Of a stretch of 64,000 nt of DNA, positions 2,038-63,170 are shown one piece after another. This DNA is from Blepharisma japonicum (taxonomy: Eukaryota; Ciliophora; Heterotrichea; Heterotrichida; Blepharismidae): assembly GCA_949751835.1 (NCBI GenBank), contig CATKHK010000032.1, positions 124,001-188,000 on the forward strand, read 5' to 3'. A model generated the notes under the pieces. The model did not search any database, was not told the origin of the DNA, and saw nothing but the letters and a program-made list of their open reading frames with translations. A program made the position numbers and the translations under genes. The first letter of the stretch is position 1. Each line of letters opens with the position of its first letter.

Positions 2038-4767
2038 ATGGAACCTCAACTAAATATCCAAGGAAGGGCATTTAAATTAGAACAACAGCTTTCCAATGAA
2101 GAATTTGTAGCTCAAGACAAAAATTCAGGCCTGAAATACTTGCTAAAATATATTAAATCCCCGAGCCCTCAAAGAATCAAGCTTCTCAAGAACGAAATTC
2201 GAATCCTCCGAGAACTAAATCCCCACCCAAGCATCATTACTTTGCACTCTGCAAAGGAATCTGAAGGCTCCTATTTATTTCTATATGAGCATTGTGAGGG
2301 CGGCTCCTTACAAAACAAAACAGTCCAAGATCCTTTAAAAGCATTATCTCAAATTTCCTTAGCGCTCCAGCATATGCATCAAAGAAGCATCCCAATAATC
2401 CACAGAAATATAACACCTTATAATATTTTATGTCAAGGTGATGAGTATAAGGTAACTGGCATGGAATCTGCATCAGAGCAATACACAAGTTTGACTGATT
2501 TAGATTTATTTAATAGGGACACTGAGCTACTACAAATCAGTGATCTCAAATGAAGAGCGCCAGAGCTGATAGACCCAAACCCTCATTACATTATTGACAA
2601 TAAAACAGATATATGAGGACTAGGGATGGTATTTTATTACATGTTATTTGGAATTTCTCCATTTCCTGACCTGAAATCGCAACAAGAAGGAGTGTGAACA
2701 ACGCCTCGAGAAGTAAGTTGAAAAATAAGAGAACTGCTACAAGTCATGTTGAACCCAAATCCACTAAAAAGAGCTGATATTTATTCTGTTTTAACTAAGT
2801 TAGACGAGCATAATCCTAACCAAGACTCTCACTCCTGCTCAATATCCTGCTTTCCGAAAATTTCTCCATTTTCAAGATTAAAATCAAAAAAATCCACCCA
2901 AGGCCTAATACAAAATGCATGCTCAAATAATTCTTTACCACTAAAAGAAATCTTTTCAAAAAAGCTAGTGGCAAAGGTCTGGGCAAAGCCAAAAAAAATT
3001 AATAAATTTTATGCAGAAATGCTAAGGCTTCAAGGACTTGATAACCCTCAAGTAAGGTTAAAAGCATTAACATTGCTTTTAATTTACTTACAAGAAGGGC
3101 CATTATATGTATATCAAATCACACCTGGCGCCCTAGAAGTTTTGCATTATATAGAGTCTTATTGTTCTGTAAGGCCAGGCCATCCACTTAAATCAGATTT
3201 TTTTAGAAGGGTCACAAATTCATTTGCTGCAGCCATAAAGCAAAAATATTACGTTACCAAGTCTAATATTGGCAGCTTTAACGGACGATTTGTGGTAAAT
3301 CATGAAAATGGGCAATTTAATAGCCAAGTTGATATGCTGCTTATTGATGATTTACTGTTTTATTGGCAATCCTTAATAAAAATTCACGAAATGCTTGCGA
3401 CTGGTTCACATCTTGAAGCTATCTGTAAATCAATCAGAATTTTGCTTATAAATGAGCAGCAAAAGCTATTAGAAATAATAAGCCCTTGCATAAAAAAATT
3501 ATCACTATCTTCTCAAAACAACGATTTATCTAGAGAGTTCAATAAAGCCTACTTTAAAGCTAAAACTTTATTTGAAATTGACAACACTGAGATCCCTTTA
3601 AACCCTATCCCTACCTCAGAAATCCCTGAAATCTTAATAGACGACCCTATTTATGAATCTTCTAAAAGCAATGTTCCAATCGGAGAAATCCGCCGGCAGT
3701 CTCAAAATTCTCCATCCTCAAGCTCTTCAAGTTCTGACTCCTCAGAGGAAGATTTTCAGCTTGACCAGCAGCCTCTTCCAAGGTTTTCTTCAGTCCAGTT
3801 GCAGCCAGCTATAATAGAAACTCATTATTCTACTGCCAGATGTGAGCATTTAACAACAGTCCATGACTATGATTTAATTGATTTATCCCAAGATCGTATA
3901 GAAAAATTCACCAACCATCTTAATGAGCAATACAATTCTTGGCTAATTGACATAAAAAATGTCAGGTGTATGAGACAAATAGGCAATGGCAGCAGTAGTG
4001 AGGTCTGGCTTGGTCTTTATCAGAAAACCTTTGTGGCTGTGAAAAAGCTGAAACATGCAGAAAAACAAAGCATAAAAGAATTCGGAAGAGAGGTGAGCTT
4101 GCTAATAAAGCTGAGACACCCAAATTTAGTACTTTTTATGGGAGCTTATATAGGAGAAGACCAGCTTTGTGTGTTGACTGAGTATTGTCAGGGAGGGGAT
4201 TTATTTCAACTTCTGCATAAACGGAAAGATATTTTTATTTCGTGGGAGCAGAAACTTAAAATTTGTCATGATGTCGCGGTTGGGATGAATTATTTGCATT
4301 CCAACAATTATATACACAGAGACTTAAAATCACTTAATTTGCTATTGGCATCTCCATTATTACGTCCTACTGATTCTGTGACTGTAAAAATCAGTGACTT
4401 TGGGCTATCCAAAGAGTTCAAGTTTAACGGGTTTATGACAGGACAGCTAGGAACTTGCCATTGGATGGCTCCAGAAGTGCTAAGTTCTTCAGATTACTCT
4501 CTAAAGGCTGACATTTATTCATACGCAATTGTAATGTATGAGATCATTACAAGAGAAATTCCTTATAAAGGACTATCACATGATACAATAAAAGAAAAAG
4601 TGTTAGGACAGCATCAAAGACCTGACATGTCATTAATACCACCAAGCTGCCCGAAAGCACTGGAAAAACTAATGGCAATGTGCTGGAGATCTGACCCGAA
4701 TAAAAGACCTCATTTTTCAGTCATCGTGGATATACTCAACTCAATAGAACTGCCTAAATCTCAATAA
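2038..4767 (+). CDS. Two-kinase protein: NAK/AAK1-like pseudokinase, ANTH-like middle, TKL-type active kinase
   Basis: A single 909-residue frame appears once TGA is read as Trp (2551-2553 is the W of KWRAPELID). Residues about 8-255 form an AAK1/GAK-type (NAK) kinase domain: HPSIITL, YEHCEGGSL, MHQRSIPIIHRN, WRAPELID, DIWGLGMVFYYMLFG. The catalytic Asp of HRD is Asn and DFG is replaced by TGM, so it is a likely pseudokinase. Residues about 304-497 are helical, with RLKALTLLLIYLQEGP resembling the ANTH/ENTH signature. After a Ser/Glu-rich linker (about 560-600), residues about 638-905 form a complete TKL/Raf-like kinase: VAVKKLK, HRDLKSLN, SDFG, MAPEVL. NAK kinases act in clathrin coats, so a membrane-traffic role is inferred. 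The ANTH assignment is the weakest part. Confidence 0.85.
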
Positions 4768-4792: not shown

Positions 4793-5224
4793 ATGATTAT
4801 TTATGATTTTTACATTTTCAACAACATAGGAAACTGCTTATTTTATATAGAACTCAAAGGACAGAGGTCAGAAAACAAAAGAGAAAACAAGCAAAAACTT
4901 ATGTTTGGGCTTATATACACCCTGAAGTCCTTTTGCCGCAAATTTTCCCCAGAGCCTATATCTGTGAGTCCATTTACAAGCTATGTGACCGATTCTTATA
5001 AGCTGCATATATTAGAAACACACAGTGGCCTGAATTTTATTATGATTACTGATACAAATGCTCCTGACCAAACTAGCTGTCTAAGCTATATCTACTCAAA
5101 CTTATTTTCCCCATTTGTCCTGAGGAATCCATTTTACGAGCCTAAAAAGCCTATTTCTTCAGCAGTTTTCAGACAAAAATTACTAGAGCATTTCGATACC
5201 TTAGACAGTTCAAGAAAAGCATAA
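4793..5224 (+). CDS. BET5: TRAPP complex subunit TRAPPC1/Bet5
   Basis: This 143-residue longin-fold subunit belongs to the TRAPP tethering complex and GEF for Rab1/Ypt1, which acts in ER-to-Golgi traffic. The family pattern is followed along the whole length: MIIYDFYIFNNIGNCLFY at the start, KLMFGLIYTLKSFCRKFSP, SYVTDSYKLHILETHSGLNF, and a C-terminal IYSNLFSPFVLRNPF block. The length matches Bet5/TRAPPC1 (about 145-160). The gene starts 25 bp after the stop of the two-kinase gene on the same strand, and its own ATG at 4793 is the expected family start. It has no introns. Confidence 0.92.
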   Translation: MIIYDFYIFNNIGNCLFYIELKGQRSENKRENKQKLMFGLIYTLKSFCRKFSPEPISVSPFTSYVTDSYKLHILETHSGLNFIMITDTNAPDQTSCLSYIYSNLFSPFVLRNPFYEPKKPISSAVFRQKLLEHFDTLDSSRKA

Positions 5225-8159: not shown

Positions 8160-10580
8160 ATGGCTGACTCTTTTCCTTCCACAACCTCCCAGTTATATAA
8201 CGCTCTAAAAATTAGTTCCGAATATATTCTTCAGAGGTTGCCTAAAGCAGAAGTCTCGATCATATTAGGAAGCGGAATTACTGAATTTTATTTACGAATT
8301 GAAAACTTACAAGGGATTCCTTTCCACGATATTCCTTATCTTCCAGTCCCAACAGTATCAGGCCACAAAGGGACTTTATATCATGGCACAATCCATGGAA
8401 AACCGATTTTTTGTTGGGGTGGAAGACTTCATGGCTATGAAGGGTATAGTAATTTTCAGATTTCTTATATAGCCCATCTCAGTGCATTTTTAGGCTGCAA
8501 TACTTTGCTTATAACCAATGCTTCTGGCTGCTCAATGCAAGGTGTTAAGCCTGGAGATATTGTCCTTTTAAAAGACTATATAAAGCATTTTGGTAGAAAT
8601 CCTTTAGACACAGGTCTCCATAATCTTTTCACTGAGCCACATTCAAGCTTTTCATTTGACGAAGGTCTCAGAAAATATGCAATCCAAATAGCAAAAAGAT
8701 TGCCAAATATCACCGTCCATGAAGGAACCTACTTTTGGGTTAGAGGCCCATCGTTTGAAACACCTTATGAGGTGGAAAGTTACACAAGTTTAGGAGGAGA
8801 TTTGTATGGGATGAGCACTGTACCAGAAATTCTGGCTGGACAAGCTCATGGGATGAGAGTATTAACAGCAGCAGTCGTCACAAACTTGGCAGCAGGGCTC
8901 GTAAAGGATGAAATATTGACCCATGAGCTTGTAAAAGACACTATTGCGAGGGTGAAGAATGAAATTGAAGAATATTTTATGCAAATTTTGTCAGAGCTGC
9001 CACCATTTGAAGGAACTATTCAGACAGAATGGATAAATGACGTAATACCTAGAGTCTTACATCAAGGGAGAATTGAAATTACTGAAGAGCAGGTTAGGGT
9101 TGCAATAAGATGGCTACGGCAAATTAATGAAGGCAGGCCTAGCCCTTCTCTAGCTGTTGTTATCAACAGTAAACAAAAATTCAGCCTCTCAGAGCTCCGA
9201 AAGGTGTACTACTCAGAAATCCCTAACTTCCCTCAAGTTTCCTACGCATCCCGACAAGGCTATCTTCTCATTGGCAATTTAGCCTCTACAAACCTTATTT
9301 ATCTCATAAATTCAGACTATGAAGGACTAGAAACTTATGAATCTTATTTTTTAATAAAAACCTTAATAGGTTTTGGCATTACCCATTTACATTATATATT
9401 CCCAGTGCTAAATCTTGGTAAAAGTGGGATTGTAGGAGTTGACGACTATTTTAGTTTTCATATAAAAGGATGTGCAGAAGGGTCAAATAATGATGCTGTC
9501 AGGATTACTTCGATAGGAAATCATAGTGTCATGGTTTTTCCAGGGCCAACTTTGCCGACTGCTGCTGAACATGAGGTGGCGAGGAGGCTGAATTTTGATT
9601 TGGTCAGTATTGCGTCGACGTCTATATTGAGTGAAGCTAGTAATAATGGGCTGACACATTCTGCAAGCTGCTATAACTGCAACTTTAAGGAAGATTCGTT
9701 GACAAATTCTGAGGTTATACAAGCTTTGAGTTTAGGTTTGTTTAAAAATTCAAGTGAGCCGCTATTATGGTTTCCAAGCTTATATCATAGAGATGAATTT
9801 TCAACGTTTAACCATACTTTAGAATCTCCTCAGGACTTAGAACTTGTTGCAGCAGAAATAAAATCAGCTTTTTCTCCTCTAGCTACCATAGTAGTTTCAG
9901 ATACTCTAGGTGAAAGATTATTAGCCCATTTCCAAGTAACAAAATCCTACACTTTAGGTCCTTGGTTTCCTCAAACCTTGCATTTTACCTCAGAAAACCT
10001 TATGATAATTAAAGGATCCCCTATCCTTCGTCATGGTGACAAACACCACAAAATGCTTTTCCCTGCATTTTTATCAAATTTATTGAAAATTTCCAAAATT
10101 TTCATATTTGACGAAGTTTCAACCTGCAATGAGCATATTCAGCTTGGCAGCTGAATAAAAATTACCCATCAATGTGGACTTGTTTTCTTCAATCCACTAT
10201 TTGGTCCTAATATAAATCATTGGGGTGTTAGATTCCCTGACATGAGTGCTGCTTTTTCTTGGAATTTAGACTGGAAATCTGCATTATTGGCACATGGAAT
10301 TAATTGCGAGGAAGCAAGACTTGTATATACTGCAAGTGAAAGAGAAGCCCATGGGAGAGCTCTAGCTAAGGTCGGAAATATATTAGGTGCTGGAGTATTA
10401 GGAAAATCTGGGCAATATTCAGCAATTATAACTCAGCATAAACATTCTGAAGAAGAGCCAAGAAAAGTTTTGTATCTTGGATATGTTAGTTATGACCCAT
10501 TAAGAGACCAAAACGCAAGTCAACCATCAGATGAGCATTTTATCGCATTAAAAGAGTTAATAATAAATAATCTCAATTAG
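8160..10580 (+). CDS. Purine nucleoside phosphorylase with three tandem PNP-fold units
   Basis: This 806-residue frame starts at ATG 8160 and reads through TGA (Trp) near 10153. Unit 1 (about 1-285) is a complete trimeric-type PNP: LGSGIT phosphate loop, SGHKGTLYHG, GRLHGYEGYS (the His and Glu of human positions 86 and 89), NASGCS, GPSFETPYEVESY, LYGMSTVPE, and VVTNLAAG. Asn after Thr in VVTN favours 6-oxopurine nucleosides (PNP) over methylthioadenosine (MTAP). Unit 2 (about 300-560) keeps the fold but is eroded: GPTLPTAAEHEVARRL, SIASTSILSEASNNG. Unit 3 (about 590-806) retains NPLFGPNINHWGVRFPDMS but lacks the GRxHxYEGY site. One active and two structural units in one chain would mimic the usual homotrimer. 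Confidence 0.9.
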
Positions 10581-18818: not shown

Positions 18819-21800
18819 TTAATTACCTTCAGACTTCTTTTCGAATTGAATTACTGGTCTATTGCGGTTTGATGGGCTATTTGTCCTAAATGCAAAAAGT
18901 GGAGGCTTTGGACTTGCTTCCCCTGTTGTAGAGCTACCTGGAGTTTTTTGGCCTGTTTGATCTGAGGAAGATTTTTCTTTAGAAAATTCTTCAAATGTGA
19001 TCCCTGCTTGCCCAAATAAAGAAGTAGCGCCTTGTTTAAATTCTTTAGTCCCCTCAGCTCTCCTCATGAAATTTCCTGATGCCTGTCTTCGACTACCTTT
19101 ATCAGCTCGAAGCTTTTCGTTTTCTCTTAAAAGCAGCTCTTTTCGCTTTTCCAAAGCTTCTAATGAGTCAAGTGCTTGATTTTTTTGAGAAATTAAATGG
19201 TCTTTTTCCATGCTTCATTTAGCTCTTTCTTTTTCTAAGTCAATAAAAAGTTGACTTCTCTGCTGCTCGGATTCTTTGGCACGTTTTTCATACTCAGAAA
19301 GTTTGGTTCTCAGTGAATTTATTTCAGAATTGAATTTTTCTTGCCATTCTTCAATTCTTGTATCCCTGTCTTTTTTAGTATTATCTAATTCGTTAAGGAT
19401 TTTTATTTCATTTTCTGTTAATTCTTGCAGACGCTTCTCCATATTTCCAGATTGAGAATTTCTCCCACGTTTTTCAAGTTCAATTTCTTCTCTTAAGCTT
19501 CTGATTTCTTTTTCTTGATTTTTTACTTTTTCTGTTAAATCTGATGTGGTTGAAGCATGATTTTCTTGCATATCTTTAATTTGTGAGGAGTATCGTGACT
19601 CTATTGAATCAATCATCGTTTTATTTGCAATTTCTTGTTTTTCTCTATCCAATGCTTTTTGTTTCTGAAATTGTTCTATAGTTGCTTCGAATTTTTTTTG
19701 AAATTCTGCAAGATTATTTTTTTCTTGATCCCTTTGTTGCATTAAAAACGAAAATTTATTTTCCCATAAAATCCTTTCCCTTTCTGCTGCAGAAGTTCTT
19801 TCTGCACTATCTTTTTCAATTTCTTGTATGCGAGTCTTCAATCTTTCATTTTCCAGTTGAATTCCCATCATACCAGTATTTTCATTGTCTTTTTTCCCTT
19901 TAAGCTGTATTTGTAAATTTTCTATTTCTTGTTTGTATTGTTTTTCCATATCATTTTTCTTCATATCAAGGTTTACCAGTTTTTCAGATAGTACTGCTTT
20001 TTCTTTTTCTAGGCTACTGATTTGTTTTGAGCTGCTTGTTGCTATATCTTTGAGCTGTTTTTTTCTTTGTTCTAGTTTTTCTTCAAGATTTTCTTTTACC
20101 TGTGTAAGTTTTGCTATTGTAGAAGACAGTTCTTGGCCTGATTCATCTTTTAAACTTTTTACAGTTTCACTATATTTATCTTCGGCATCATGCAAAGATT
20201 TTTCAAGCTCTAAAATTCTTTTTGCTTTAAATTCGCTATCTTGTTGTGCTAAAGCCATTTCTCGTTTTGAGTCACTTTTCTTTTGATTTAATTCATCAGA
20301 TATTTTTTGATAAGCAATTTTTAGGTTTTCTAGCCTTTCAGTGATAATTTGCTTTTCTTTTTCATAGAGAGATTTTGTGTCTTCTAGCTCAGCTTCTTTA
20401 TTAGAAAGCTGAGACTCAAGCTGGTCTTTTTTGAAATTTAGAGATTCTAATTCACGTTCTCTTGTACTAATATCGTTAGCTTGTTTTTCTATTTTTTCAA
20501 GTAATGCATTTCTTTCTGATGTAAATTTCTCTTGCAGCTGCTCTATTGCTTGAGAATTTGCTTTTTGAATATTTTCTAAATTTTCTTTAGTTTCTTTTAG
20601 AACTTTTTCTAAAGTTTCTATTTTTTGTGTATCTAAGCCAGACTGGTGAGTAAGCATATTTACTTGTTCTTTGTAATATTCTTCTAATTCATGCATTTCA
20701 TCTTCTTTGGCTGTCAATTCTTCATCAAAGAGGTCTTCATTTTGTCTTATTCGGTCTTCGTATTCTTCACTCATAATTTTGTATTTTTTGTCAGATTTTT
20801 CTTTTTCTTCTTTTAGTCTGAATTCAAGCCTATTTTTTTCTTCTTCATAAAATATTTTAAGTTGTTGATAAGATTGCTCTGCTCTTAGATTTCCAGCATG
20901 AACTTCTTCGCCATGTTTTGACTTAGTTTCTTCTAATTGATTTTCTAATGCTTTTATTCGTTTTTTGAATTTTTCTTCTGCATCTTGTATAGATGAATTC
21001 ATTTTTTTTAATAAATCGCTGACTTGGTCTTGAAGCTGAGTTTTTTCATTTAATAAATTTTCAATATCTTCTTGAAATTGCATTTCTTTTTCCGCCCAAT
21101 TTGATGTGTCAATTTTTGATTTTAATTCAAGTTCGTTGCATTTTTGAATAATTTCTTCAAGCTGCTGGCTTAGCCTTTTACGCAAATTATCATTTTCAAT
21201 TTCTAGATTTTTTGTGTCATCATAGTATTGTTTTTTTAATTTTGCAAGCTGAGTTTCAGCTTCTTCAGAATTTACTGACGTTCCTGCTTGTATGGACCTT
21301 ATCATATTTTCGTGCTGTTTTCTTTCATCCTCCAACTGTTTTTTAGACTCCTGCAAATATTGTTCAGCAAATTCTAGCTTCTGTGCAAGTACAGCATTTT
21401 CTTTTTGCCATTGTACTAGTGAAGATTTATAATTCTCATCAACATTTTGATATTTTTTCTCAAAATCTTCAGCTTTATTTTTCATTTTCTGTAAACTTAT
21501 ATCATGCTCTCTATTCGAATCATTTATTTTTTTCTTAAATTCATTATCTTTCCTATCAAGTTTTTGCTTAAAATTTTCTATTTGCAGTGTCATCTCGCTA
21601 ATAATTGATTTATTCCTCATTTCGCTTTCTTCTAATTCAGCTTTTTCTCTGTCAAATTCATTTTCTTTTTCTTCATATTCTCTTTCAAGCTCATTAAATC
21701 TTTCAGATTCTGAGTCAAGTCTTGATTGATAAAATTTCAATTGATTTTCGTATCTTGATTGCAAATCTTTTATAGAGAGATTGTGGTCTTTTTTCTGATT

Positions 21801-23780
21801 TTTTAAATCATTCATGGTCTCTTTTTCTCTCCTTCGCGATTCTTCTAAATTTAATTCCAAATATTTTATTTTTTGGTCAAATAAAGCTTTTTCTTCTTGG
21901 AAATCAGCAACCTGTTGGTGGAGAATTCTTTCCATTTCTTTCATTTTTTCTTCATATTCCCATACTTTTGTATTTGCGTTTTCAAGCTGCTGGGAATTTT
22001 CTGTTCTGACGTTTTTTAAAGCAGACCTCATTTCTTTATCCAAGCTGTCTCTTTCGCTTTTAAGTGACAAAATTTGTTCTCTCATGCTCTGTTCTTTTAC
22101 TGTAAGCTCCGCTTTTTCTGCCTCCATTTTTGTGATTTTCCTCTGAAATTCATCACGCTCCCTAGCGAAATCTTCTTTAGTTTCTTTTATATCATTTTCC
22201 AACTGTGATATTTTTTCTGATTTTGTTTGAATGACCATATCAAGTTCATTAGAAGTCGTTTTTAGAAAAAAATCACTTGTACATGATATTTTATTCATAC
22301 AGAAATCTAATAACATTTCTCTACGGGCTGGGCCTTCAGGACCATGCTCTAAAAAGAATTTTTGAAAAGATTTCATACTTTTGTCATAATCAATAAAATA
22401 TTTAAATTCTCCTTTTCGTAGCTTTAAGTCTATAATTGAGTAATTATCTGTTAAAAATTCTGTCGCTTTTCTTTTAGTTTCTAGCTCATTGTCACTTTTA
22501 ATAGAATAATATTTTTCTTGCAAGCTTTCTTTAAGCTGCTTTAAATAATTTATTTTTTCGTCACCTATAGCTTTAAGCTCGAAATGTTCTAAAGCGGCTT
22601 CTTTAGCTTCTTTGTGGATAAGTTTTAATTCTTCTTCACTGATTGGAAATCTATTAGAAATGCTGCTTGTTAGTATTTTTTCATAAATATCTTGCGCATT
22701 CTGTAAGCTTTTTGTGCACTCAGTTTTGCAAATATAAATCCAAGCATTTTCCACATTCAACGCTTCTCCATGGTTTATTGCTTTTATATAAGCTTCTACC
22801 AAATGTGTAAGCATTTGCCCATTAATAGCTTTCCCATTCACAGTCTTTACTTTGCATTTCCCTAGAATTTTTTTCCTTGCAGAAACAATTTGCTCTACAA
22901 ATTCTAGCCTTAAATCTTCGAATTCTTTTTCTTTTAAATTTTCTATGTCTTCATCATTATCCGTTGGTTTTACCAAAGGGCAACAGTCTCTTTCTTTAAA
23001 AAATTCTTTGATAAATCTTCTGGTTTTATTTTTATTATCAACTGAGCTCGAAGCGCCTTTTTGTGGCTGTAAAGATAATTCTAGGTACTCTTTAGATGAA
23101 ATTAGATCACCTTCTGAGTTAATTAACTGTGAAGAAAAATCTCTGACCACCCACAAAAAAGTTGGGAAATGTGGCTGATATTCTTCAAGGCAGATTTCTT
23201 CAGTCTGTTGAGCTTTGATTTTAATTTTTTTTGGCAGGCTTGATATAAAAGAAAGGTTTTCTATAGCGTTTTCATCGATAGAGCCAAATGAGTTATAAAT
23301 AAGATAAGAACTTAATAGGGTTGTCAGTGAGAAAATTCTTGTATCATGCTCAGTGTCCTTACCAAAATTCTTAAGTCCTTCAGTATCTATTAAAACGACG
23401 CTGCAGGTTTCACCTTCTGAGGTAGTTCCTGTCAAGGGCCTTCCCCAAACCCAAACTCCTTTAGTGCAAGGACTTGAAGATGCAGCGATATTAAATCCAT
23501 TTTTACAGTTGAGCAAAACTCTGTTTAAAAAGTAAGATTTTCCAGTTCTATTCATACCTGTAATTGCGACAATAGAAATTGGCGCCGATAGTGATTTTAA
23601 AAAATCCATTGCAACATCATTGATTGAATATTTTGCGATTTCTTGGTTATATGCGAGAAGCGGTATGGCTTCATCAATATATTGAAATTTCATCATACTG
23701 TCGTTCATAGATATAGGTGAATCTGGCCTTGAGGACTCATAAGTCTCTACGTAGCGAAAAGAGTGATTTCTTTCATCCAT
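18819..23780 (-). CDS. Guanylate-binding-protein (GBP) family GTPase with a very long coiled-coil tail
   Basis: This 1653-residue protein starts at ATG 23778-23780 (MDERNHSFRYVE), and TGA near 19214 (Trp) joins the main frame to its last 130 residues. Residues about 50-300 form a GBP/atlastin-type large GTPase: P-loop GMNRTGKSYFLNRVL, switch SPCTKGVWVWG, DTEGLKNF, and WVVRD, the GBP guanine-binding motif. A GBP-C-like helical part follows to about 520 (ALNVENAWIYICKTECTK, EHGPEGPARREMLLDF). Residues about 540-1560 are nearly continuous heptad coiled coil rich in Glu, Lys and Gln. The tail (about 1560-1653) is Gly/Ser/Pro-rich. Human GBPs are about 590 residues, so the tail is unusually long. 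Long GBP-coil proteins are known in protists and plants. A membrane or cytoskeletal tether is an inference. Confidence 0.92.
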
Positions 23781-60752: not shown

Positions 60753-63170
60753 ATGATTGCTCCAGTGGTTTCTCGCCAAGGCTCCTTTCAAGAGATGAAA
60801 GACATCGAAGGCCCATCCATATATCCAGCTGAAAACCAAACTACTTTTTTCAACAACGATACAGATCGGGATCCCCCAATTGTGATTCCCAAAATCCCCA
60901 TTCGTGAAAAAGTAATTCAATTCCTCGACTCCTATTTCATGATGGCTTTTATGGGAATTTTAGCAATTTACACGCTATTTGGTGATGACATCCGGTCTTC
61001 ATCCTTCCCCAAATCAGCTGATGAAACTTTCTTTGCAATAGCCACAGCTTGTTTTGCTATTTTCAGCTTAGAATTCCTCATATGCTGTGCATGCAAGAAA
61101 GACTATCTTTTTTCCTTTTATTTTTGGCTAGATTTAGTTTCTACTATTTCTTTAATTCCTGATATAGGATGGATGTGGGACCCTATTATAGGAGTTGAAG
61201 ATGATGATGATGATTCTCAGAATGAGTCCATGTACAAACAAGCAAATCAGCAGTCAAGCGTCGCTAAAAGTGCTACCAAAGTACTAAGGATTGTAAGACT
61301 TATCAGACTTATCAGAATTGTAAGACTCTATAAAAACGCTTCAGCAGCTGTAGAAAAGCATGAATCAGACAGTGAAGATGAAGAAGAAATCATAATACCC
61401 AAAGAGTCACAAGTTGGGAAGCAGCTCAACGATTTGACGATAAAAAAAGTTATTATCATTATTTTGTGCTTGCTTTTTATACTCCCACTTTTTGACACTG
61501 AGATGTGGACAACTAAACAAACAAGCTGGGATTTTGGCATTCAAGAAATAGAAAAATTTAAAGATGAGCCTGAAAACGTATATACAGTCATTAATAAATA
61601 TATTTCTTTTCATGAAGATGATGACAGACCTATAATTTACTTCATTCTTGTAAATCCTCAGCTGAAATTATTTTACAGCTGGTCTACTACAACTCTAGTA
61701 GGCTCTTTAAGGTATTATGAAAAGCATTTTGCGACTGGAGATTTCTCAGTAGCAGTCTTTGACTTAAGATATGACACTAAATTTGCTGCAGAACTAAACA
61801 TGTATCAGACACTTTTTATATGTATTGTACTCACGCTTGGAATTATTTATTTTTCTAAAGATGCAGATGTACTGGTGATTAAGCCGATTGAAAAAATGGT
61901 CCAAAGGGTGTATGCTATAGCTAGTAACCCTATTACAGCAGGCCACAAAAGGCATGAGTCTGCTTTTGACATCATAATGAAGCAAAATAAAAGATTTTTG
62001 TGTTTTAAAACTAATGAAAGCGACGACAAAGCAAAATTCGAAATTGCGTTATTAGAAGATACCATTATTAAAGTTGGTGTTTTATTAGCACTTGGCTTTG
62101 GAGAAGCTGGAGGAGATATCATAGCCTCAAATATGCAAAGAGATAAAGAATTGGAGCTTGTAAAAGGAAATAAAATAGTTGCAGTCTTTGGATTTTGCGA
62201 TATCAGAAACTTCACAGATTCTACTGAAGAACTTCAAGAATCTGTCATGATTTTTGTCAATGAAATCGCTAGAATTGTCCATACAATGGTTGACACTTAT
62301 CATGGAGCTGCTAATAAAAATATTGGTGATGCATTTTTACTGGTATGAAAATTTTCAGAAAAAGATTTTAGCGTAATTGATGGGAAAATTCAGCCGAACC
62401 CAGAGTCGTCAAAGGCAAAATATATACCTGATTTAGCATTATTTTCATTTTTGAAAATTTTGGCCAAAATAAATAAAGACCCTGTTATTCTTAAGTATAG
62501 GGAACATACCAAGCTGAATTTAAGAATGCCAAATTATGAAGTGAAAATGGGTTTTGGACTGCATATAGGTTGGGCTATTGAAGGAGCAATTGGCAGCCAA
62601 TTTAAAATTGATGCAAGCTACTTATCACCCCATGTAAATATGGCATCAAGATTTGAAGCTGCCACAAAACAATATGGAGTCCCACTACTTTTTAGTGGGA
62701 CTTTATATGACTACCTCAGCCCAAATGTGCAGACTTATTGCAGACATATTGATACTGTCACTGTTAAAGGAAGTATCCTTCCTATTAGAATTTATACAAG
62801 TGACTGTGATTTTTCTGAGTTAACACCTTCGAAGGGAAGGGAAAGAACTAAACAACAGTCGAGGCATAAACGAAGAATCCTAGAAAGAAAATTAGAAGGC
62901 GGATCTATGAAGTCTTATGAGCTTTATGAGCTTTCTAAAGAAATCCAATCGATGAAAAAGCCGTTTACAAGGGAATTTTATGGAGCTTTTGCAATTGGAA
63001 TGAAGGCATATATTGAAGGGCGTTGGAATGACGCAAAAGAGAAGTTCGAAGAATGCTTAAAAATCAAGCCAAGAGACGGACCTTCACTTACCTTGCTAGG
63101 GGTCATGTCAGATTCAGATTTTGAAGTCCCAAATGATTGGAAAGGGTTCAGAGTTTTAACTGAAAAATAA
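60753..63170 (+). CDS. Voltage-sensor-linked class III nucleotidyl cyclase
   Basis: The 805 residues include TGA as Trp near 62346. The N-terminal part holds an ion-channel-type voltage sensor: S1 SYFMMAFMGILAIYTLFG, S2 FAIATACFAIFSLEFLICC, S3 SFYFWLDLVSTISLI, and an Arg-rich S4 RIVRLIRLIRIVRLYK near residue 180. A further span (VIIIILCLLFILPLF), an extracellular segment of about 110 residues and another span (TLFICIVLTLGIIYF) follow. The cyclase domain begins near residue 460: metal site FGFCDIRNFTDS, NIGDAFLL, and HVNMASRFEAAT. A TPR-like C-terminus follows (EGRWNDAKEKFEECLKIKP). Ciliate adenylyl cyclases with a voltage sensor are known in Paramecium. ATP versus GTP cannot be decided safely. 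Confidence 0.87.

Follow-up and report, generated by a model that had tools for sequence, protein, structure and literature searches.

A Blepharisma japonicum gene predicted to join a NAK-type pseudokinase, an ANTH-like domain and a TKL kinase in one chain, and its relatives in heterotrich ciliates

Introduction

Kinases of the NAK family and proteins with ANTH domains act at clathrin coats. A locus in a 64-kb stretch of the Blepharisma japonicum genome (45.2 Mb; the stretch is hereafter called the window) raises the question of whether both can be built into one polypeptide together with a second kinase of a different group. The initial annotation described this locus as a single chain made of a NAK-type pseudokinase, an ANTH-like part and a complete TKL kinase, and proposed that a coat-bound pseudokinase recruits or controls the attached active kinase. 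In the literature that we searched (titles and the beginnings of abstracts), no published description of a NAK-ANTH-TKL protein was found. A preprint on the Stentor kinome (Reiff and Marshall 2017), whose title announces novel domain architectures, might list Stentor members. In the excerpted text of a survey of ENTH, ANTH and VHS domains, the term kinase is used solely for lipid kinases (PMC3473312).

Results and Discussion

A single open frame encodes the whole chain

The gene and its parts lie in the window as follows.

2038..4767, + strand: whole gene, a single 909-codon open frame plus TAA (TGA read as Trp); a 911-aa homologue in B. stoltei, 97%
2038..2811, + strand: NAK-family (GAK/AAK1/BIKE-like) pseudokinase domain, aa 1-258 (phmmer and a profile of the genome's own seven NAK domains)
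2893..3582, + strand: ANTH-like all-helical domain, aa 286-515, phosphoinositide motif absent (Pfam, family profile, model, motif check)
3583..3927, + strand: linker, aa 516-630, with pLDDT <50 at 526-615 (AlphaFold model)
3931..4752, + strand: TKL-group kinase domain, aa 632-905, complete catalytic set (Pfam, RAF/CTR1 matches, alignment)

Under translation table 11 this stretch is broken at TGA into two open reading frames (2038-2553 and 2746-4767). With TGA read as tryptophan, four such codons (W172, W193, W220 and W228) fall within a 909-aa frame that is closed by TAA at 4765-4767; an in-frame TAA at 2029-2031, seen by eye, lies three codons before the ATG. We adopted the tryptophan reading because other kinase genes of the same genome also carry in-frame TGA and because W193 falls on the Trp that kinases conserve in their DxW motif. 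The resulting protein has the order NAK kinase (1-258), ANTH (286-515), linker and TKL kinase (632-905). The chance that two adjacent genes were read as one, or were joined in assembly, is vanishingly small: the standard code does split the stretch in two, but the splitting codons are TGA, and five paralogues share the same chain, as do proteins of B. stoltei and Stentor and one protein taken from a transcriptome. We therefore rejected this artefact. That last protein, P0017, is a relative from another source and carries all three parts in one chain, where two separate transcripts had been raised as the alternative; the single chain claimed by the initial annotation thus stands. Identity to the B. 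stoltei homologue is high in every part (NAK, 98.4%; ANTH, 97.8%; linker, 95.7%; TKL, 98.9%).

The same domain order recurs in paralogues and relatives

A search of the B. japonicum genome with the TKL domain returned six matches of at least 273 bits (C32, which is the gene studied here, C7, C66, C132, C16 and C70), and in all six genes a NAK-ANTH part precedes the TKL kinase. The next match, at 176 bits, is C30 (L024:1463-3757, + strand), which was considered as a further member and set aside: it is an RCC1-like protein (by eye) that ends in a TKL kinase and has neither NAK nor ANTH, and among TKL kinases outside the family it is the closest relative. The NAK-ANTH pairing is kept in seven of the genome's own genes. 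One of these seven, the following protein, has no TKL kinase.

L007:1435-3108, + strand: 558-aa NAK-ANTH protein that lacks TKL, at C4 (alignment, profile A2)

The NAK domain of L007 keeps all five catalytic residues, with HMD for HRD and an intact DFG. Its residues 301-540 score 117 bits against the profile of the family's middle region (A2, described below), and no Pfam ANTH match was found in the second half of the protein. The genome further encodes a stand-alone NAK kinase (L026, at C37) in which the P-loop glycines, HRD and DFG are all present.

Beyond this genome, relatives were identified in B. stoltei (P0003, P0004, P0015) and Stentor coeruleus (P0018, P0075), along with P0005-P0007, P0014, P0016, the transcriptome entry P0017, P0074 and P0076-P0078. 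They come from three protein searches, each scoring about 8000 candidates, in which family members made up 5 of 6 matches, 5 of 60, and 5 among the 120 listed of 171. Matches outside the family were set aside by their coverage, mostly of the kinase part alone, and by their Pfam columns, and the sequences of P0008, P0066 and P0097 were inspected. We aligned the family in 20 rows (A1), leaving out P0074, whose matched part is 100% identical to the C132 protein. An ANTH region lies between the two kinases in all 18 rows that have an N-terminus. Since six genes of one genome and homologues elsewhere share the order, it is neither a one-off nor a product of chance; judged from these sequences, NAK-ANTH-linker-TKL is a protein family, and the named sources in which it has been seen so far are heterotrich ciliates.

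The N-terminal domain resembles GAK, AAK1 and BIKE and has lost catalytic residues

The following positions of the N-terminal domain bear on its catalytic state.

2146..2148, + strand: retained ATP-site Lys37 at the VAIK position (family alignment)
2401..2409, + strand: HRN instead of HRD, aa 122-124 (translation, alignment)
2458..2466, + strand: GME instead of DFG, aa 141-143 (translation, alignment)

With aa 1-258 as a single phmmer query, the best matches were GAK, AAK1 and BIKE (4e-19 to 4e-18), followed by twitchin (5e-17) and ULK1 (2e-14). A profile built from the genome's seven NAK domains ranked the same three kinases first (GAK, 2.9e-50; AAK1, 5.5e-50; BIKE, 3.4e-48), the next being GCN2 (2.3e-38) and STK16 (3.8e-38). 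An extra helix that ends the activation segment marks the NAK family; a helix is modelled at that place (154-164), yet pLDDT is below 50 at 150-166. A kinase domain that has lost at least one of the VAIK Lys, the HRD Asp and the DFG Asp is classed as a pseudokinase. Two of these three are lost here, and the domain is, by its sequence, a NAK pseudokinase, as first annotated from its likeness to AAK1/GAK, its HRN and its lack of DFG. The pseudokinase has been kept, since the NAK domain is so nearly identical in B. stoltei.

The NAK kinases AAK1, GAK and BIKE (BMP2K), with their presumed link to clathrin coats, are thus the closest known counterparts of this domain; the protein studied here differs from them in lacking the catalytic aspartates, in its degenerate P-loop and in being continued by an ANTH domain and a second kinase. 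Another parallel is Trypanosoma AAK1L1, which the part of its report consulted here presents as a putative NAK pseudokinase, with HRN in salivarian trypanosomes and DFN for DFG in orthologues (PMC10952953). According to the same excerpt it is mostly under negative selection, and a T. brucei null mutant shows altered cargo uptake (PMC10952953). AAK1L1 therefore offers a precedent for a NAK pseudokinase that has a role in uptake, although the excerpted report describes neither an ANTH domain nor a second kinase in it (PMC10952953).

Catalytic residues vary in the NAK domain and are constant in the TKL domain

The C-terminal kinase carries the following catalytic motifs.

4315..4323, + strand: HRD of the TKL kinase, aa 760-762 (translation, alignment)
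4396..4404, + strand: DFG of the TKL kinase, aa 787-789 (translation, alignment)

Residues 632-905 match RAF and CTR1 (from 3.6e-46 on) and retain K669, E685, D762, N767 and D787, in agreement with the complete TKL kinase that had been proposed. The domain resembles the TKL kinases RAF and CTR1, with their full catalytic set, and differs from them in being joined behind a NAK-ANTH part. An NCBIfam scan of three family members brought up nothing but kinase models from bacteria and archaea, all far short of their cut-offs.

The TKL set K, E, D, N, D is complete in all 20 rows of the alignment. For the NAK domain we counted 18 rows, because P0005 and P0078 lack the N-terminus; the Lys is kept in 16, the Glu in 18, the HRD Asp in 6, the Asn in 11 and the DFG Asp in 7. 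The full NAK set of five is retained in three rows (P0012, P0013 and P0016), so that the pseudokinase state is not a fixed trait of this architecture, though none of the three has a normal glycine-rich loop. Residual activity of the NAK domain in the studied protein, which would make it a dual kinase, is very improbable. Lys37, Glu53 and Asn129 are retained in it, and the three relatives with all five residues lend the idea some support, but both the HRD Asp and the DFG Asp are replaced and the P-loop is shortened and has lost its glycines.

Trees were computed for the NAK-ANTH part (19 rows) and the TKL domain (18 rows); their deep parts have long branches and are only partly resolved. Four groups are common to both: the clade of the studied protein, C66/C16, P0016/P0017 and C132/C70/SteCoe_32. 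SteCoe_35373 (P0018) groups with C66/C16 in the NAK-ANTH tree only (92/92). The minimum number of changes on the tree is two for the HRD Asp, three for the DFG Asp and three for both present versus any lost, a count that is blind to gain versus loss. Repeated loss of the NAK catalytic residues would be the simpler reading, since P0016 and P0012/P0013 retain the set beside altered relatives. The family offers a natural series: one kinase domain differs in catalytic state along the tree, with three changes or more, and the other keeps its catalytic residues in every row. This makes it testable how a catalytic domain becomes a binding domain once a second kinase shares its chain.

The middle domain is ANTH-like and lacks the known phosphoinositide motif

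The studied sequence alone does not prove an ANTH domain, because it scores 12.2-12.7 bits with Pfam ANTH, below the cut-off of 21.5; the family evidence does. Two paralogues exceed the cut-off (C66, 36.1 bits; C16, 25.5 bits), and with E up to 1 Pfam ANTH was found in 10 of the 13 family sequences given (best, 2.1e-11). At that threshold it was not found in full-length P0018 and P0007, and P0075 reached just 13.4 bits. A precomputed PF07651 assignment is present on 4 of 15 family members among the protein-search matches listed (P0014-P0017). We built a profile of the middle region (A2) from 13 of the 20 rows, leaving out near-copies and fragments and not including L007. Against the PDB it found yeast-type Sla2 (7.6e-7), HIP1R (7.9e-4) and CALM/AP180-type structures (0.08-0.45), and ANTH proteins account for 10 of its 11 matches with E up to 10. 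Weak matches of the middle region to MLH1 and others (E 0.02 and worse) were dismissed as chance because the family profile found ANTH instead. When the family was compared in hhalign with four of the genome's stand-alone ANTH proteins, the result was weak (2% probability, E 0.024), against 0.1% and E 0.49 for a control with the NAK profile.

ANTH domains are all-helical, with about 10 helices. An AlphaFold model based on 16 sequences (mean pLDDT, 74.3; pTM, 0.40) has ten helices in 287-514; a single-sequence structure model (mean pLDDT, 33.7) was discarded. In a Foldseek search with the whole model, the best 50 of 1999 matches were all kinases, behind which the ANTH region is invisible. The model and the family profile, with the two paralogues above the Pfam cut-off, bear out the ANTH-type middle that had been suggested and speak against an unrelated fold. 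Sla2/HIP1R and CALM/AP180 are the known proteins that the domain resembles, both in profile matches to their ANTH structures and in its ten-helix model. The family differs from them in lacking the phosphoinositide lysine motif, and no ANTH protein with flanking kinases was found among them.

The ANTH phosphoinositide motif has the form K-x(about 9)-[KR]-x-[KR]-[HY]. At its place in the domain it is absent from all 20 family rows and also from L007, so that phosphoinositide binding through the known ANTH motif, which the initial annotation had implied, finds no support here. P0007 comes nearest (Lys, then NRKH) and still does not fit the pattern, and P0011 has a pattern match elsewhere in the domain. 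The motif is present in all four stand-alone ANTH proteins of this genome that exceed the Pfam cut-off; in one of them, L010, it was confirmed as KATYHGDNDPPKEKH, a separate earlier pattern match in L010 being due to chance. The ENTH-like match C18 (19.6 bits, below the cut-off) was not used as a motif control. The lysines that hold the phosphoinositide in CALM are K28, K38 and K40, according to the part of the source seen here (PMC8648300). The net charge of the first 60 domain residues is +7 to +10 in the clade of the studied protein and -2 to +3 in the C132/SteCoe_32 clade. Another lipid surface on the ANTH-like domain is possible, since the domain start is still basic in the former clade.

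These observations bear on a reading in which the NAK-ANTH part has left the world of clathrin and phosphoinositides and binds proteins elsewhere, for example at the cortex or secretory organelles, with the TKL kinase signalling there. Such a non-coat scaffold is consistent with the loss of the motif throughout the family beside its presence in every stand-alone ANTH protein counted, with a domain start that is basic in the clade of the studied protein but not in the C132/SteCoe_32 clade, and with coat motifs that are weak and clade specific (see below). It is less easily reconciled with the coat-family origin of both N-terminal domains, which are paired in seven of the genome's own genes, or with the clathrin-box matches in part of the family, and we consider it rather unlikely.

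The linker varies in length and carries scattered coat motifs

One coat-like motif was located in the linker of the studied protein.

3874..3885, + strand: LIDL(S), aa 613-616, clathrin-box-like, last place not acidic (alignment, motif scan)

LIDL[ST] is kept within the clade of the studied protein as a box-like sequence that lacks the final acidic residue; outside the last ANTH helix, the linker of the studied protein has no strict clathrin box, LIDLS ending in Ser. We scanned 12 representatives, hand-picked from the 20 rows so that near-copies and fragments were left out, with linker limits set by hand. Of the 12 linkers, 7 contain strict clathrin boxes, where 0.88 would be expected (0 of 5000 shuffles, a chance value that applies to these seven). 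We counted 4 of 12 instead because the boxes of P0002, P0009 and P0006 sit where the last ANTH helix ends; the four beyond it are LVDIE in P0007, LVDFD in P0016, LMGFD in P0012 and LINLD in P0077. DP[FW] was found in 2 of 12 linkers against 0.25 expected. Among the 12 representatives, the linkers of P0010, P0018 and P0013 contain none of the tested motifs, and that of P0011 has DPW and WxxF only. The coat motifs of the family's linkers are suggestive only.

JAK-type chains combine a pseudokinase and an active kinase. By analogy, the NAK pseudokinase could hold back or switch on the TKL kinase in cis, with the ANTH domain setting where and when it is released. The tandem of pseudokinase and kinase in one chain fits this idea, as does the conservation of the pseudokinase (98.4% to B. 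stoltei), but between the two kinases stand an ANTH domain and a linker of about 115 residues, and the intervening ANTH domain is a constant of all 18 rows. As cut here, the linkers span 78 to 292 aa, a spread that does not resemble a fixed interface, and at a pTM of 0.40 the model fixes no arrangement and offers no sign of contact between NAK and TKL. The kinase groups also differ from those of JAK. We regard control of this kind as clearly unlikely.

A docking module that may carry an active kinase

Our preferred reading, to which we give about even chances, is that the NAK-ANTH part docks on coat or cargo and carries the active TKL kinase on a flexible tether. The NAK pseudokinase and the ANTH domain together would form a docking module for coat and cargo partners, such as adaptor subunits, clathrin or other trafficking proteins. 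Docking would proceed through protein surfaces and would involve neither phosphotransfer nor the classical PtdIns(4,5)P2 motif. The linker would then tether the TKL kinase at this site, where it could phosphorylate nearby coat or cargo proteins, and the recurrent loss of NAK catalytic residues would fit a division of labor in which catalysis has moved to the TKL domain. As for potential partners, clathrin heavy-chain repeats occur at two loci of the genome, seven at each, and the adaptor mu-subunit family is matched at six places; the clathrin propeller (PF01394) gave no match, and its controls were equally empty.

A docked and tethered kinase of this kind would mean a switch of kinase group at the clathrin coats of giant ciliates. 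We also propose, much more tentatively and as something that probably goes too far, a history in which heterotrichs fused a NAK kinase to an ANTH domain and a RAF-like TKL kinase and then handed catalysis over, leaving the NAK domain in several lineages as a pure reader of coat or substrate and the TKL domain as the coat kinase. If such a handover took place, clathrin traffic would gain a second, RAF-type kinase input. According to the excerpt consulted, gene silencing is available for Stentor (PMC4019465).

Neighboring genes in the window

Several other genes of the window were characterized by eye. The open reading frame directly downstream (4793-5224, + strand) resembles the TRAPP subunit TRAPPC1/Bet5, likewise a trafficking protein, and a P4-type ATPase-like start (1-690, - strand) runs off the edge of the window. 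An 806-aa protein (8160-10580, + strand) seemingly consists of two purine nucleoside phosphorylase-like halves, and in one of 1653 aa (18819-23780, - strand) a very long coiled coil comes after a GBP-like GTPase. Near the far end (60753-63170, + strand), an ion-channel-like part is fused to a nucleotide cyclase-like part.
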